Positions 812-63,705 of a stretch of DNA of 64,000 bases are shown piece after piece. Origin of the DNA: Natrinema sp. SYSU A 869 (lineage in GTDB: Archaea > Halobacteriota > Halobacteria > Halobacteriales > Natrialbaceae); NCBI RefSeq assembly GCF_019879105.1, contig NZ_CP082247.1, positions 186,001-250,000 of the forward strand, given 5' to 3'. Numbering within the stretch: position 1 is the first letter of the stretch; each line of letters starts with the position of its first letter. Under the pieces are notes generated by a model that saw nothing but the letters and a program-made list of their open reading frames with translations, had not been told where the DNA came from and did not search any database. A program made the translations under genes and the position numbers.

Positions 812-991
812 GTGCTACCACATCTACCTCTCAGTGATTGGAAAAAAGAAAGGCGCGAATCGTTGTGGCACAGCAAATACTCATTCCCGTAAGATTTTAA
901 TTAGAGTTTTTGTGTCTCAGCGATCCAAGCCACAATTGGAACGGGTAATATACTCTTATCAGTTTGAACGACAGCGGAATGATGGCCATCG

Positions 992-1351
992 GTGACCTCC
1001 TCACGGGCGTAAACGCCGGGGCTTCCCGTGCCGCAGGGTGGGATATTTGCTGGTTTGCAACCCAGTCGGCATGACGGGCTACTGGCGGGGCCCCACTGCC
1101 GTTACTCCTATCCCGGTATGGGACTCGGAGCTATCCCTCCGAGACACCACAGCGGTTCGAGATGGGTGTCTCGAACTTGCTGGTTCCCGGCGTCCCGATA
1201 TTGCCCGATTAGGTGGGCGGTCATACCGCCTCGGTGTCTGTCACACGACGGAATTCACCCGCTTACATATCCGTACTACCGTCAGAACGTGGCTTGCGGA
1301 GTCAAGTGACGCGATTCACGCCCGCCCTGAAGGGCGGGGATTCTCTCGCTG
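992..1351 (-). mobile_element. Non-autonomous IS200/IS605-type element (360 bp, diverged)
   Basis: Read on the minus strand, this begins directly after TTGAG (1352-1356). Its left-end hairpin has stem CCCGCCC and loop TTCA (about 1319-1337). It ends with a GGCG-TTTA-CGCC hairpin followed by GAGGAGGTCAC at 992. The same plan, a TTGA-type pentanucleotide, a subterminal hairpin, about 300 bp of structured sequence, and a terminal hairpin plus GGAGGTCA, is seen in the two 378-bp elements at 15503 and 62551. No transposase or TnpB frame is present. The interior has several GC-rich inverted repeats, as expected of a transcribed right-end RNA, but this is inference. Confidence 0.6.
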
Positions 1352-13720: not shown

Positions 13721-13959
13721 TCAGTGATCCCGCTTCCCAGAGGGAAGCAGCCACCGATGCGTCGGAGGAGGATGATGCCGATACGCAGGACTGGGAACTA
13801 GAGCGGTGATCATACAGGTATCCCCTGTGTGGGAACCAGCTTTTTCAGCCGCTTGAATGACCAGCACAGAATCAGCTAGTTCTGTTGGACTCATCTCCAG
13901 GAAATCTACTTCGGACACGGCGGATGAGAATTAAGACGGTACACCGGGAAGAGACGACT

Positions 13960-15287
13960 ATGAGTGAGACGGAGGTCCCACCGTCGCCGAAGGGTATCCC
14001 GCTCCTCGGTAACGGCCTGTCCTTTTCCCAAGACCCAGTCAGTGCGATGGAATCCTGGGCAGCCCACGGTGACCTCGTTCGCCTTCAGTTTCTGGGAGAG
14101 CCCATGTATATGGTCACCCACCCGGAACTCATCAAGCAAATCCTTGTCAAGGATCAGCACAAGTTCACGATCGGCCCGGAACAGCAGGACACCTTCGAGG
14201 GCGTCGAAGACAATGCCATGACAACCGCAACGGGCGCCCGGTGGAAACGCCTCCGGCGGGCGGCCCATCCGGCGTTCACCCGTGAGAGTATCACGAATTA
14301 CGGCGACCGCATGGCGGCTGTGACAGCCCGGTTTGTCGACGAGTGGGACGACGGTGCGGAATTCGCTCTCCACCCAGAGATGCGCCGTCTCACAGTTCAG
14401 ATCTTAGGCGAGACACTTCTCAACCAGGATATTCGCGGACAGGAGGACGTGGTCATTGACGCTGCAGACGCCTTCGTTGACCGAACAAACTTCCGCAGAC
14501 CCGGCCAGCTGCTCCCGGACTGGATACCGACACCGACGGAGCGTCGTTTCGTCGCACGGTCCAGCGCCTCGACACGTTCGTCGACGACCTCATTGCCGAA
14601 CGGCAAGCGGAGGAGACAGATGCCAGCGAGGATGTATGTGCACTGTTGCTCAACGCCTCTGAGGACGGGGAACTGTCATTGGCAGAGGTCCGTCACAACC
14701 TCGTTGCGTTCCTGCTGGCGGGCCACGAGTCACCGTCTGGTGCACTCACCCGGATCTGGTATCTTCTGGACGACCATCCCGACGTGTATGAATCACTCCG
14801 TGAGGAGTCCGACCGGGTCGTCACCGGTGACCGGTCGTCGATCGATGAGTACGCTGATCTCGAGTACACACAACACGTTGTCGCAGAGACCCTTCGATTG
14901 TACCCGCCGACAACGGGTATCAACCGGCAGGCCGTCGAACGCGTGACGCTGGATGGCTACGAGTTACCCGAGGGTGCCCAGTTTCTCATCCCGCAGTGGA
15001 TCCCCCATCGGGATGAACGATTCTGGGACGATCCCGAAACATTTGATCCTGACCGATGGACCACCACTACTGACCGCCCAGAATATGCGTACTTCCCGTT
15101 CAGCGGCGGTCCCCGGAGCTGTATCGGTAACGACTTCGCTCGCCAGGAGCTGACGCTGGCCCTGGCAACAATGGTCGGCCGCGTCACCCTTGATGTAACC
15201 GCTGATGGACCGCTCACGTTCATTCCGTCGATTCAGCTTCGACCGGCAACAGAGATCACTGCGGCAGTCCGTCGATCAACACAGTGA
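13960..15287 (+). pseudogene. Cytochrome P450 with a one-base frameshift
   Basis: The gene starts at ATG 13960 (SETEVPPSPKGIPLLGNGLS). Frame one runs to ERRF near 14550; frame two then continues FRRTVQRLDTFVDDLIAERQ-like sequence if one C is restored, through the I-helix (LLAGHESPSG), the ExxR motif (AETLRLYPP) and the heme-binding loop PFSGGPRSCIGNDFA with the Cys thiolate. Total would be about 443 residues, normal for a soluble archaeal P450. The substrate is unknown and no ferredoxin partner is adjacent. All key motifs survive, so this is a recent mutation or a sequencing error at 14547-14551. Confidence 0.8.
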
Positions 15288-15968
15288 GATATCCACACCA
15301 CTGTCGTACTCAGGCCAGTAACAACCGCTGATCTTGACGGAGTCACCGCTGACGCACTCACCGACCTGTCCAGACCCGCCAATAAAACGTGATCAGCCCC
15401 CGCTCCGGTACAAACCATTGTACCAGTCACCGGGAACCAGGCCGATGAGGAGCAGTATCTGCTGGAAGCAAGTGGACATGCTCCCGGATCGGCGGGGTTG
15501 ATACAGAACGATAGCGCATACCCGCGTCTTCAGGCGCGGGTCGAGCGGTAGGCCTATCCGACCAACTATCGTAGATGGCCGGAACGGATTTCCATCAAAA
15601 CTGTTTTAGTGTGGTGCGTCGTAGCATAGAGTGCGACGAATACCGTGAGATGCCGTTCCTGAACCACAAAGGATGGCGAACCAGCGGTGGTTCGCACGGC
15701 GATGACATGGTATTCGACGGGGCCTGTTTGACCGGGCCACAGCCCTATACAGGGGAGGAAACGAGAGTTCCCCCGGTATGCTGCCGGTTCCCCTTGAGTG
15801 CGGGCTGGAACCTCGAACGCCACACCTGGCGGAAATCAGATGGTCGGATTCCACGCCCTGAAGGGCGTGGAGGAGGTCAATGGTGTCCTCGTTCCCCAGT
15901 TGCTCTTAGAGTACACCGACTACGGACGTTCCGACTATACGGGGTTACCGTTCTATTTACAGAAATAG
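15288..15968 (+). pseudogene. Decayed open frame interrupted by the small IS605-type element
   Basis: In the P450 frame, coding-like sequence continues past the stop (TTVVLRPVTTADLDGVTADA). It meets a TGA at about 15391 and resumes as TGNQADEEQYLLEASGHAPG. Deleting 15503-15880 joins SAGL to IGVLVPQLLLEYTDYGRSDY and ends at TAG 15966-15968. The in-frame join across the element supports a once continuous gene. No family recognised. Confidence 0.3.
15503..15880 (+). mobile_element. Non-autonomous IS200/IS605-type element, copy 1 (378 bp)
   Basis: It starts immediately after TTGAT (15498-15502). The left-end hairpin is CCCGCG...CGCGGG (about 15519-15538). The right end has a perfect 8-bp stem CCACGCCC-TGAA-GGGCGTGG and finishes GAGGAGGTCAA at 15880. 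Copy 2 at 62551-62928 has the same length and differs by about four substitutions, so both moved recently. No transposase gene is inside; mobilisation would need TnpA supplied elsewhere. TTGAT is the known target and TAM of ISDra2, which makes a relation to the TnpA/TnpB system likely. The sequence after the right end would act as guide if an omega-like RNA is made. Confidence 0.75.
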
Positions 15969-16464: not shown

Positions 16465-17206
16465 GGCACTGTCTAGTTTAGTACCTCCGCTGGCGTCTGT
16501 CCGTTGAGTGATTGGTGCGGTCGTTGTGTATTGTAATAGTGTGCGAACTGTTCAAGCCAGTCTCTGACGCTCGCTCGACTGCCCACCCATGAGTTGTGGA
16601 AGCGGTCAATTCTCATCTTTAAGGTATGAAACCACTTTTCGATCAGGTTTCGATCGACATAGTCGAGCTGACCGCTCAACCCCAATCGAGAGAGGGCAGT
16701 CAGATAGCCGTAGCCATCGACGAGAAACACAGTGTTGGAGAGATCGTGTTTCTCGGTCAATTTATGCAGGAACGCAGCGGCTGGATCGGTTCCCCGCCGT
16801 CCAAACACTGCAACATCAAGAATAAGCCGTGAGTCTAGGTCGATTGCAGCGTACACCCAATACCAGTCGCCGTTAATCTTGACAGCGGTTTCATCAATAG
16901 CGACCCGCGACGGCGAAGCCGACGGCGGGTCTGGGACGCTGTCAGCCAGCCGATGCACCCAGTACCAGATTGCTTGATGAGTGCGTTCTACGCCAATCAA
17001 GCGAAGAATTGCTTGTGTCTCTCGGAGAGAACAACCGGTCGCGTGGAGTCGGACGGCGAACACCCTGACGGGCGTCGCCGTCCGCTCACGCTCCCAAGCT
17101 TCATCAAATTCCGCCGCGTAGCACTCGCTGAGCAGGTCTGCGAGCATCATTCCAAACTAACTCCACGACCTGCTCGTTCCCCAAACTGGCCTAACTAGAC
17201 ACTGCC
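16465..17206 (-). mobile_element. IS6-family insertion sequence, intact, with 8-bp target duplication
   Basis: 742 bp long. The terminal inverted repeats are GGCACTGTCTAGTT at 16465 and, on the other strand, GGCAGTGTCTAGTT ending at 17206. It is flanked by the perfect direct repeat CTTCGGAA at 16457-16464 and 17207-17214, the 8-bp duplication typical of IS6 transposition. It contains one transposase gene. The intact duplication indicates simple, fairly recent insertion. Confidence 0.9.
16473..17150 (-). CDS. IS6-family transposase
   Basis: 225 residues, normal for archaeal IS6 transposases. An N-terminal helix-turn-helix (GCSLRETQAILRLIG) is followed by the DDE catalytic core: Asp in SRVAIDETAVKING, Asp in TVFLVDGYGYL, and Glu in VDRNLIEKWFHTLKMR. 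It ends HYYNTQRPHQSLNGQTP, characteristic of the family. It acts on the ends of its own element, often via replicative cointegrates. No lesion is seen, so it should be active. Confidence 0.92.
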   Translation of the reverse strand: MMLADLLSECYAAEFDEAWERERTATPVRVFAVRLHATGCSLRETQAILRLIGVERTHQAIWYWVHRLADSVPDPPSASPSRVAIDETAVKINGDWYWVYAAIDLDSRLILDVAVFGRRGTDPAAAFLHKLTEKHDLSNTVFLVDGYGYLTALSRLGLSGQLDYVDRNLIEKWFHTLKMRIDRFHNSWVGSRASVRDWLEQFAHYYNTQRPHQSLNGQTPAEVLN

Positions 17207-24080: not shown

Positions 24081-24179
24081 TGAGTTTGTAGTACTCAGTA
24101 CCCACGGGACAAGTATGTTAACCCAGAAGGTTGGCGAGCTCGTGGATATTTTGTTTAAGTTTGTACTCAGTTGAGACGT

Positions 24180-24528
24180 TAATCTCCTCCCACCCCTTCA
24201 GGGGTGGGATTCCCGAAGGAGAGTTGAAGTGTTGAGGCGGTGGCCCGAGGTCAACTACCAACAGCTCGCTAGTCGCTCAACGTACTCGAACTACGGCCGT
24301 GTGGGCCACTCTCCAGTGCGGTACAACGTGCCTAGTCGCGCGATTATCGGCGAGTCGACACGTTCTACGGGGGAGACGAACCTCGACGCCGTCCTTGACC
24401 TCGTGTCGCGCTCGAAGAAGCCGGTCCAGGAGCTCGCGTGGGCGTCGATCAGGAACGTCCTCACCGCTATCCGATCTGTGAGGCGCACGACCCTCAATGA
24501 ACTTCTTGGGGCGTCGCCGTAGAAGCAA
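24180..24528 (-). mobile_element. IS200/IS605-type right end and possible remnant
   Basis: On the minus strand the sequence GGGAATCCCACCCC-TGAA-GGGGTGGG followed by AGGAGATTAA ends at 24180. It has the same hairpin-plus-GGAG(G/A)T layout as the right ends at 15880 and 62928. The DNA up to about 24528 lacks in-frame TnpB motifs. A left end was not found with confidence; CCTCAATG at 24492 is the best TTGAG candidate. It borders the iteron array directly. Confidence 0.4.
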
Positions 24529-62094: not shown

Positions 62095-63138
62095 TCATCT
62101 CTCCTTTCCCATCTCTATTTCAGAATTAAATTGTGTAAAGAAATCATTCATGAAACTCCATCGGGACGTTCCAAGACGACGTCCGGGTGGCGTATACAAT
62201 CGGTCCAATCGCTCTGTTGCCCACTCTCGAAGTAGAGTGATATCTGGAAGATTCGATGTCTTCACTCCAGATACTGATGCGTTATCGATTACCGCGAATT
62301 TCTCGCCTGTTCTCCCCGATCTCTCGCCGACAATACAGGCCAGACGGATGAGACCGGATGCGCCAGTTGCATCTAACTTATCTGCATCAAAGAGTAACTT
62401 CGCCTCGAGAGTCTCTGGCTCCGGGGAGCTAGACCGAATACTGTGTGTTCGGATACAGTGTTTGATAGCATCGATGCGATCAGTTTCCACCTCTTCGGTC
62501 TCAAGAAGATCCGCTGCTTCCACTGTGGCCCATTTGTCGTGATCATTGATACAGAACGATAGCGCATACCTGCGTCTTCAGGCGCGGGTCGAGCGGTAGG
62601 CCTATCCGACCAACTGTCGTAGATGGCCGGAACGGATTTCCATCAAAACTGTTTTAGTGTGGTGCGTCGTAGCATAGAGTGCGACGAATACCGTGAGATG
62701 CCGTTCCTGAACCACAAAGGATGGCGAACCAGCGGTGGTTCGCACGGCGATGACATGGTATTCGACGGGGCCTGTTTGACCGGGCCACAGCCCTATACAA
62801 GGGAGGAAACGAGAGTTCCCCCGGTATGCTGCCGGTTCCCCTTGAGTGCGGGCTGGAACCTCGAACGCCACACCCGGCGGAAATCAGATGGTCGGATTCC
62901 ACGCCCTGAAGGGCGTGGAGGAGGTCAATTCCCCCGATCGTTCGAGTGGGCGACCAATGTCGTGTAACCACGCTGCTGCAGAAAGGATCTCTCTCTCAAC
63001 GGTTCCATCACACTCGTTTGCTAACCGAATCGACAAGTCTCGCACCCGTTTCGCATGGAACCGATCGTGTGCGGGGAGGGCATCATCGTAATAAGGCAAC
63101 GACAGCTCTCGAGCGAGATGTCCTAATTCCTGTGACAT
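62095..63138 (-). pseudogene. HD-domain phosphohydrolase split by a 378-bp element
   Basis: The gene starts at ATG 63138 (MSQELGHLARELSLPYYDD), with metal-binding residues in AHDRFHAKRV and the HD pair in AAAWLHDIGRPLERSGE. It is interrupted at 62928. After removal of 62551-62928 the frame continues INDHDKWATVEAADLLETEE, AIKHCIRTHSI and LLFDADKLDATGASGLIRL (the last Asp) to 62095. The protein was about 220 residues, typical of small HD hydrolases acting on nucleotides. The in-frame restoration fixes the element ends to the base. Confidence 0.85.
62551..62928 (+). mobile_element. Non-autonomous IS200/IS605-type element, copy 2 (378 bp)
   Basis: Starts right after TTGAT (62546-62550) and ends GAGGAGGTCAA at 62928. 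It differs from copy 1 (15503-15880) at about four positions. Both end hairpins are kept, although CCCGCG is CCTGCG here. It is inserted in the HD-hydrolase gene, and deletion of exactly this interval restores the frame with no duplicated bases, as expected for IS200/IS605 single-strand transposition. No transposase inside. Confidence 0.8.
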
Positions 63139-63705
63139 ATGTAGTGTAATAAACACAGATAAGATTACATAATGGTTGTGGAATTTGCATACTGCATCAT
63201 AGGGAACTTCGAACTCGGTTCCTCGCGCAAGCAGACTCCGACACGTCCGAGCGTATTCGTGTTGTCGACAACCTCCAGTGGTCATACCTCGCGCCGTCGG
63301 CACAGATTGAATCTAGTAGGCGGACGACGAGTACGGAACTGAAACTAAACAATTCGTCGCTACCGAAGACGGTGAGAGCCATATCTCAATGATAAATGTA
63401 CCGTTCGTTCGTCGACGAACTCGAGCGCAAGGAGATAATCCACACTCGACTCGATGTCGGCTACTACGAAGGAACGACGAGCAGTGCGAATCGACATGCT
63501 ATCACAACAAATCGAATTCCGATTGCCCAATTTCGCTTCACGACCGTCGCTGGTATCGATAGCGAACACTGGTGTGCCGCCGGATCGTAGTCTCCCTCGA
63601 ATCCTCATCGAGGAGCGAAGACGGTCCCAAACGCGTCCGACACGTCAGATCTTTTCTATCATCTGGTCTCGGAATCCTTATACACCGATAGAAAGAAATG
63701 CCGAT
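63139..63705. other. Intergenic, no gene recognised
   Basis: Short frames on both strands (for example 63360-63608, minus) overlap one another and lack recognisable features. AT-rich at 63140-63180, a likely promoter for the HD gene. The last 50 bp probably hold the PadR promoter. Confidence 0.3.

Follow-up and report, generated by a model that had tools for sequence, protein, structure and literature searches.

PATEs of haloarchaea, such as the HqIRS families of Haloquadratum walsbyi, are described as having near-terminal IS605-type palindromes, no terminal inverted repeats and no target duplication, and as lacking the length for a transposase; in HqIRS71 a portion of the tnpB C-terminal region is retained. 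In the consulted sections of that report (PMC3119063), PATEs are called degenerate or non-coding, and a conserved RNA, a pseudoknot or a guide role is not described. The second closely related system is the TnpB-linked ωRNA, also termed reRNA or sotRNA. According to the portions consulted of PMC8612924 and PMC12558985, it has a right-end hairpin and a pseudoknot between a loop and the terminus, and its scaffold stops at the right end, the flank beyond serving as the guide. Finally, a PATE in the archaeal virus HRTV-DL1 (OP630574) is reported to be strongly transcribed over about 300 bp, with most reads called antisense to ORF3, the direction opposite to the ωRNA fold given below; a ncRNA role of PATEs was suggested there, and the excerpts consulted propose no guide role (PMC10544981).

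We analyzed a window of 64,000 nucleotides (C1:186001-250000) from the 5.67-Mb, three-contig genome of Natrinema sp. SYSU A 869, which contains two 378-bp elements with four mismatches and no gaps between them in pairwise alignment (Table 1). Both copies begin ACAGAACG... and finish ...GGAGGAGGTCAA, and their similarity is far beyond chance. A preliminary description of this DNA had reported two such copies with about four differences, subterminal hairpins in each and no transposase, and all of this was borne out; the longest frame inside, of 102 codons, has no Pfam match. Both copies of that pair are real, but full copies number 20 in this genome and fall into two families about 83% alike, 12 in family 1 at 98-100% identity and eight in family 2 at 79-84%, the left tip being different in family 2. 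Similarly, both window copies do lie directly 3′ of TTGAT as had been stated, but the base before TGAT is free over the 20 full copies (T in six, C in five, A in five and G in four), so the conserved target is TGAT, and a strict TTGAT target was rejected. Immediately past the right end, the base is T in 32 of 50 elements from all genomes and in 15 of 20 in this genome, so that targets with T next to TGAT are perhaps preferred.

Copy 2 is antisense within a predicted HD-domain gene, whose Pfam HD match is slightly below the 22-bit cut-off (Table 1). When the flanks of copy 2 are joined, a single open HD-domain frame results. Homologs spanning the joint were found in 31 genomes at 67-78% identity, two of the 31 with one stop codon, and the DNA across the joint is gap-free in the three alignments printed, the first of which lacks its head. 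Because the joined frame is open and the relatives align without gaps, the ends of copy 2 are exact and its insertion amounts to 378 bp with no target duplication. Copy 1 follows a cytochrome P450 frame of the same strand (13885-15287, +) at a distance of 215 bp; the P450 appears as two frames that overlap, 13885-14946 and 14646-15287, which suggests a frameshift. An IS6/IS240-like DDE transposase frame (16473-17150, -) lies downstream of the copy. Given palindromes near both ends that resemble those of IS605-type transposons, the absence of terminal inverted repeats, a length too short for a transposase and, at the empty site of copy 2, no target duplication, the elements are best read as non-autonomous IS200/IS605-type transposons fitting the already described PATE class.

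Table 1. Features of the two element copies and their sites. Positions are those of the window.
Feature	Position	Strand	Details
TGAT target, predicted TnpB TAM, copy 1	15499..15502	+	TGAT before 20/20 genome copies
Copy 1, complete element, family 1	15503..15880	+	378 bp
Left-end subterminal hairpin	15520..15541	+	ACCCGCG/CGCGGGT, copy 1; paired by RNAalifold too
Predicted ωRNA scaffold	15634..15880	+	fold z -5.11, covariation; 5′ limit approximate
5′ domain P0	15639..15714	+	four helices, 74.1-94.4% of cells paired
R1 match, copy 1	15719..15880	+	87.5 bits, E 7.3e-23
Hairpin H1	15721..15738	+	pseudoknot loop TTGACC at 15728-15733
P2 domain	15740..15807	+	stem CAGCCC/GGGCTG, inner helices; 100% paired
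Stems P3 and P4	15818..15851	+	77.9% and 91.4% of cells paired
Right-end hairpin	15852..15869	+	5 pairs with changes on both sides; 96.5% of cells paired
Terminal motif GGTCAA	15875..15880	+	complementary to H1 loop, 48/50 elements, G-U counted
Predicted guide, copy 1	15881..15896	+	16 nt, by analogy with ISDra2 reRNA (PMC8612924, in part)
Predicted HD-domain gene split by copy 2	62095..63303	-	frames 62095-62523 and 62884-63303; HD 20.2 bits
TGAT target, copy 2	62547..62550	+	directly 5′ of copy 2
Copy 2, complete element	62551..62928	+	378 bp
R1 match, copy 2	62767..62928	+	86.7 bits
Predicted guide, copy 2	62929..62944	+	as for copy 1, by analogy with ISDra2 reRNA (PMC8612924, in part)

A relative with tnpA and tnpB, proposed in the preliminary description as something to look for, was found in the same genome. 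This element (L034) has similar ends and open frames for a TnpA of 127 aa (Y1_Tnp) and a TnpB of 412 aa (TNB domain), both families being confirmed; L035 and L033 are further TnpA and TnpB elements with similar ends, and L031 and L032 are damaged ones. In other genomes, four 1667-bp elements with TnpB (L139, L140, L141 and L143) share with the small element the left 55-58 bp at 93-97%, the last 50-52 bp at 84-88% and, in the region of the H1 hairpin, about 44 bp at 80-84%. On the basis of these shared parts, the small element consists of a left end, an ωRNA region and a right end, and both of its ends are shared with TnpB elements. Around H1, both the frame and the motifs come from the 3′ end of tnpB. 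This origin, the near identity of copies within families, as after a recent spread, and the described emergence of PATEs by core deletion (PMC3119063, consulted in part) would all suit passive deletion derivatives, in which tnpA and most of tnpB were lost and the 3′ end of tnpB was kept by descent together with the right end, leaving an interior without function. That the interior is such a relic, the elements being mobilized only for their ends and owing their ωRNA likeness to a parental tnpB end, is unlikely in our view.

The evidence bearing on the interior comes from 56 extracted elements, of which six were dropped because they came from a place already represented or its ortholog; the remaining 50 were clustered at 95% into 29 non-redundant elements from 20 genomes and aligned by sequence only, with the structure drawn on copy 1. 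Over these 29 elements, 88.0% of cells were paired against 83.2% in shuffled and at most 49.3% in slid versions, and 32 of 79 pairs were changed on both sides against 17.9 in shuffles, the shuffle tests being inflated by relatedness and a structure drawn on one member favoring itself over slid versions. Independent structure predictions therefore matter. RNAalifold, with no structure supplied, selected a helix between the H1 loop and the last six bases of the element. Additionally, a fold of the lone sequence 15634-15880 was more stable than all of 200 shuffles and yielded P0, H1, P2, P3, P4 and the right-end hairpin. Within P0, 86.3% of cells were paired in helix 15639-15644/15709-15714, 94.4% in 15652-15656/15696-15700, 92.0% in 15657-15660/15670-15673 and a middling 74.1% in 15676-15683/15688-15695 (P0B).

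The interior is thus almost certainly a conserved structured RNA. The preliminary description had suggested that it is kept as an RNA, and the structure and compensatory changes over 29 elements agree with this; free variation of the interior, named there as evidence to the contrary, was not what we found. The compensatory changes also occur within the group of elements lacking TnpB, including a double change of loop and terminus, and on this covariation the passive reading is already failing. Two candidate pairings were set aside: helix 15617-15621/15634-15638 was unsupported, with 49.6% of cells paired, and GAACCAC/GTGGTTC, which may represent a different fold, gave way to two local hairpins and was left uncounted. 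In some elements, H1 and hairpin P2c are the two fixed sites of additional stretches of 52-54 bases, which appear self-complementary by eye; a T-rich stretch near 15602-15606 is fairly conserved, also by eye only.

The interior could alternatively encode a small protein, as the 102-codon frame, which starts at 15575 and continues up to the end of the element, is open in the two window copies and stop-free in 12 of the 29 elements. However, the other 17 contain at least one stop when read from the homologous position, changes number 865, 817 and 976 at codon positions 1-3, and dN/dS is 0.64 for 11 selected elements of the 29. The stops, codon-position changes and dN/dS led us to reject this reading; the frame, with no Pfam match, is also disrupted by the structured 52-base insertions, and a protein product is extremely improbable.

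The RNA retains the pseudoknot between the H1 loop and the terminus that is the hallmark of ωRNAs. Its complementarity holds in all 16 TnpB-linked ωRNAs as well as in 48 of 50 elements (G-U counted), where the two exceptions, L084 and L106, have ends that look decayed. A joint alignment of 18 of the 29 elements, 15 of the 16 TnpB-linked ωRNAs and one virus PATE, which omits six elements without the plain H1 pattern, five with length changes (L020, L078, L082, L083 and L125) and L035, is 92.9% paired overall and 100% paired in the pseudoknot and P2. The P2 stem reads CAAGAC/GUCUUG in TnpB-linked ωRNAs and CAGCCC/GGGYUG in the elements, and it is fully paired in 34 of 34 sequences with three pairs changed on both sides. 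At the place of P0, upstream of H1, 12 of the 16 TnpB-linked ωRNAs show an exact 7-bp stem. Like these ωRNAs, the element therefore combines a right-end hairpin and a loop-terminus pseudoknot with a scaffold that stops at the right end; unlike them, it has compensated pair differences in P2 and none of the tnpB usually found at an ωRNA. Since no tnpB is inside, we call the elements solo.

A covariance model, R1, was built from the 16 TnpB-linked ωRNAs only, with L031, L032 and L033 excluded. P3, which is 70.8% paired in the joint alignment, was omitted because its register differs between groups of TnpB-linked ωRNAs. R1 matched both window copies (Table 1), and the next match within the window was 22.7 bits; without the right end, which is shared at the DNA level, the score was 21.3 bits and still the best in that stretch. 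Across the genome, where 150 of 1678 first-look candidates were scored with R1 and 150 of 794 with Rfam RF02656, the four TnpB-linked loci of the R1 class ranked top at 166-179 bits, two of these loci having been used to build R1. All 20 copies followed at 78-92 bits, a range into which the interrupted TnpB element L031 also falls (86.4), and the next matches, including TnpB-linked ωRNAs of the other class (RF02656), had 45.9 bits and under. The comparison with known ωRNAs that the preliminary description had called for was positive for R1 but not for RF02656 (sot0042), a haloarchaeal ωRNA class, which scored 20.5 bits on copy 1 against a gathering threshold of 88, had no window match at gathering and matched family 2 copies weakly at about 25-26 bits.

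Rfam RF00062 (HgcC) scored 21.2 bits on copy 1 against a gathering threshold of 50, mainly over the right-end hairpin and GGAGGAGGUCA. Similar weak HgcC matches of 21-31 bits, below gathering, occur at IS605 right ends (window 15815-15894, L031, L034, L050 and L172), and HgcC itself may be an RNA derived from an IS605 right end. Elsewhere in the window, an ωRNA-like element without TnpB at 960-1345 (-) accounts for the 22.7-bit R1 match at 992-1094 and scores 36.9 bits with RF02656; it has six partial matches elsewhere in the genome and no exact loop-terminus match by eye, and may be decayed. A weak R1 match of 18 bits at 24179-24356 (-) ends in a right-end-like hairpin followed by GGAGGAGATTAA.

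In an unrooted tree of the short R1 region, a split with a support of 1.0 placed the 18 solo elements on one side and the virus PATE together with 15 TnpB-linked ωRNAs on the other, and the split persisted when the P2 columns were masked. On account of this split, the sampled solo elements do not look repeatedly derived from the TnpB elements of today, as passive derivatives might be. The solo elements are also diverged, with 72-86% identity to copy 1 in full-length matches, and the split and this divergence suggest that the group has diverged with its ωRNA retained, a course that would be unexpected for passive relics.

Some match to the element was present in 75 of 125 same-family genomes, a count in which at most five candidates were scored per genome and many matches span one end only. 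A blastn search of copy 1 against phage records gave no match, and 42 plasmid records matched, four of them covering at least 80% of the query. Among the matches listed for the same 125 genomes, counted by hand with E ≤1e-30 required for the element and ≥60% identity for a cognate TnpB, both were present in 20 genomes, the element only in 12, TnpB only in 27 and neither in 66 (p 0.0013). This co-occurrence fits a model in which TnpB would act on the elements in trans. The 12 element-only genomes, of which at most three are incomplete assemblies or ones prone to unlisted matches, count against a strict dependence on TnpB. They would also suit a functional RNA without a guide role, for example one that occupies TnpB as a decoy or regulates the expression of TnpA or TnpB, to which the same scaffold evidence applies. 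We nevertheless hold such a role to be unlikely, since the loop still pairs with the terminus and the scaffold still lies at the end of the element, for which only a guide that reads the flank has an obvious need.

We consider it probable that the sole cargo of the element is one complete ωRNA scaffold, acting as a mobile guide gene for TnpB in trans. The 16-base right flanks are all different in the 20 genome copies, in line with the earlier proposal of a different guide for each copy, and their role as guides is predicted from sequence. We infer the following steps. The TnpA of an autonomous relative would recognize the end hairpins and transfer the element to a new position 3′ of TGAT. The ωRNA transcript would continue past the right end, its 3′ tail of host DNA forming the guide, and a TnpB encoded elsewhere in the genome would bind the solo ωRNA in trans. 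TnpB would then cut TGAT plus guide, the sequence present at the donor site once excision has re-sealed it, and repair from an element-bearing sister copy would restore the element. Because the flank differs for each copy, each solo copy would target its own re-sealed donor site. Overall, the preliminary interpretation is largely supported, its ωRNA interior, relatives and differing flanks agreeing with the sequence evidence, whereas the TTGAT target and the copy number were revised and the PATE class proved to be already described.

Solo ωRNA-like elements also occur in other sequence families. A further family of seven in the same genome (L175-L181), among the weaker R1 and RF02656 matches like the next one, has the loop GTGGCA and terminus TGTCAC, the loop being broken in L181. 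Another family of five (L183-L187) has the terminus TGTCAA, with the loop TTGGCA located by script in three of the five and placed upstream by eye in the other two. Among the TnpB matches of this genome, none lies inside the elements of either family. The HRTV-DL1 PATE (L172:601-1089, OP630574) is likewise transposase-free with an ωRNA fold, although of a different sequence family; it scores 32.5 bits with R1, and its loop GTGACA is perfectly complementary to the terminus TGTCAC. Two elements of one genome, L108 and L109, have the terminus GGTCAC and the loop GTGACC, so that comparison of these with the further families and the virus PATE shows the loop-terminus change from T-A to G-C in three settings.

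Both PATEs and ωRNAs are already described, and the new link is that PATE interiors would be complete, covarying ωRNA scaffolds guiding TnpB in trans. Among the titles and abstract openings searched, no description of PATEs or MITEs as ωRNA guide genes was found, and other papers may contain one. Guide RNAs located away from the nuclease gene are reportedly known from the work of Altae-Tran et al. in 2021, with ωRNAs encoded apart from IscB. These belong to a different nuclease, and we know of none that is amplified as an element on its own.

It seems to us rather more plausible than its negation that PATEs in general are mobile guide-RNA genes, with at least 32 solo elements in four families (12, 8, 7 and 5) sharing a few TnpBs in trans in this genome and at least one halovirus carrying such an element. 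If so, the guides would form a dispersed repertoire renewed by transposition and not by spacer acquisition, a natural system of many guides and one nuclease without CRISPR. Should TnpB accept solo ωRNAs in trans, a single nuclease gene could protect many small transposons that encode no protein. This would provide a retention mechanism for parasites dependent on TnpA and a reason for their persistence in haloarchaea, and the question of why the interior of PATEs is conserved becomes directly testable.
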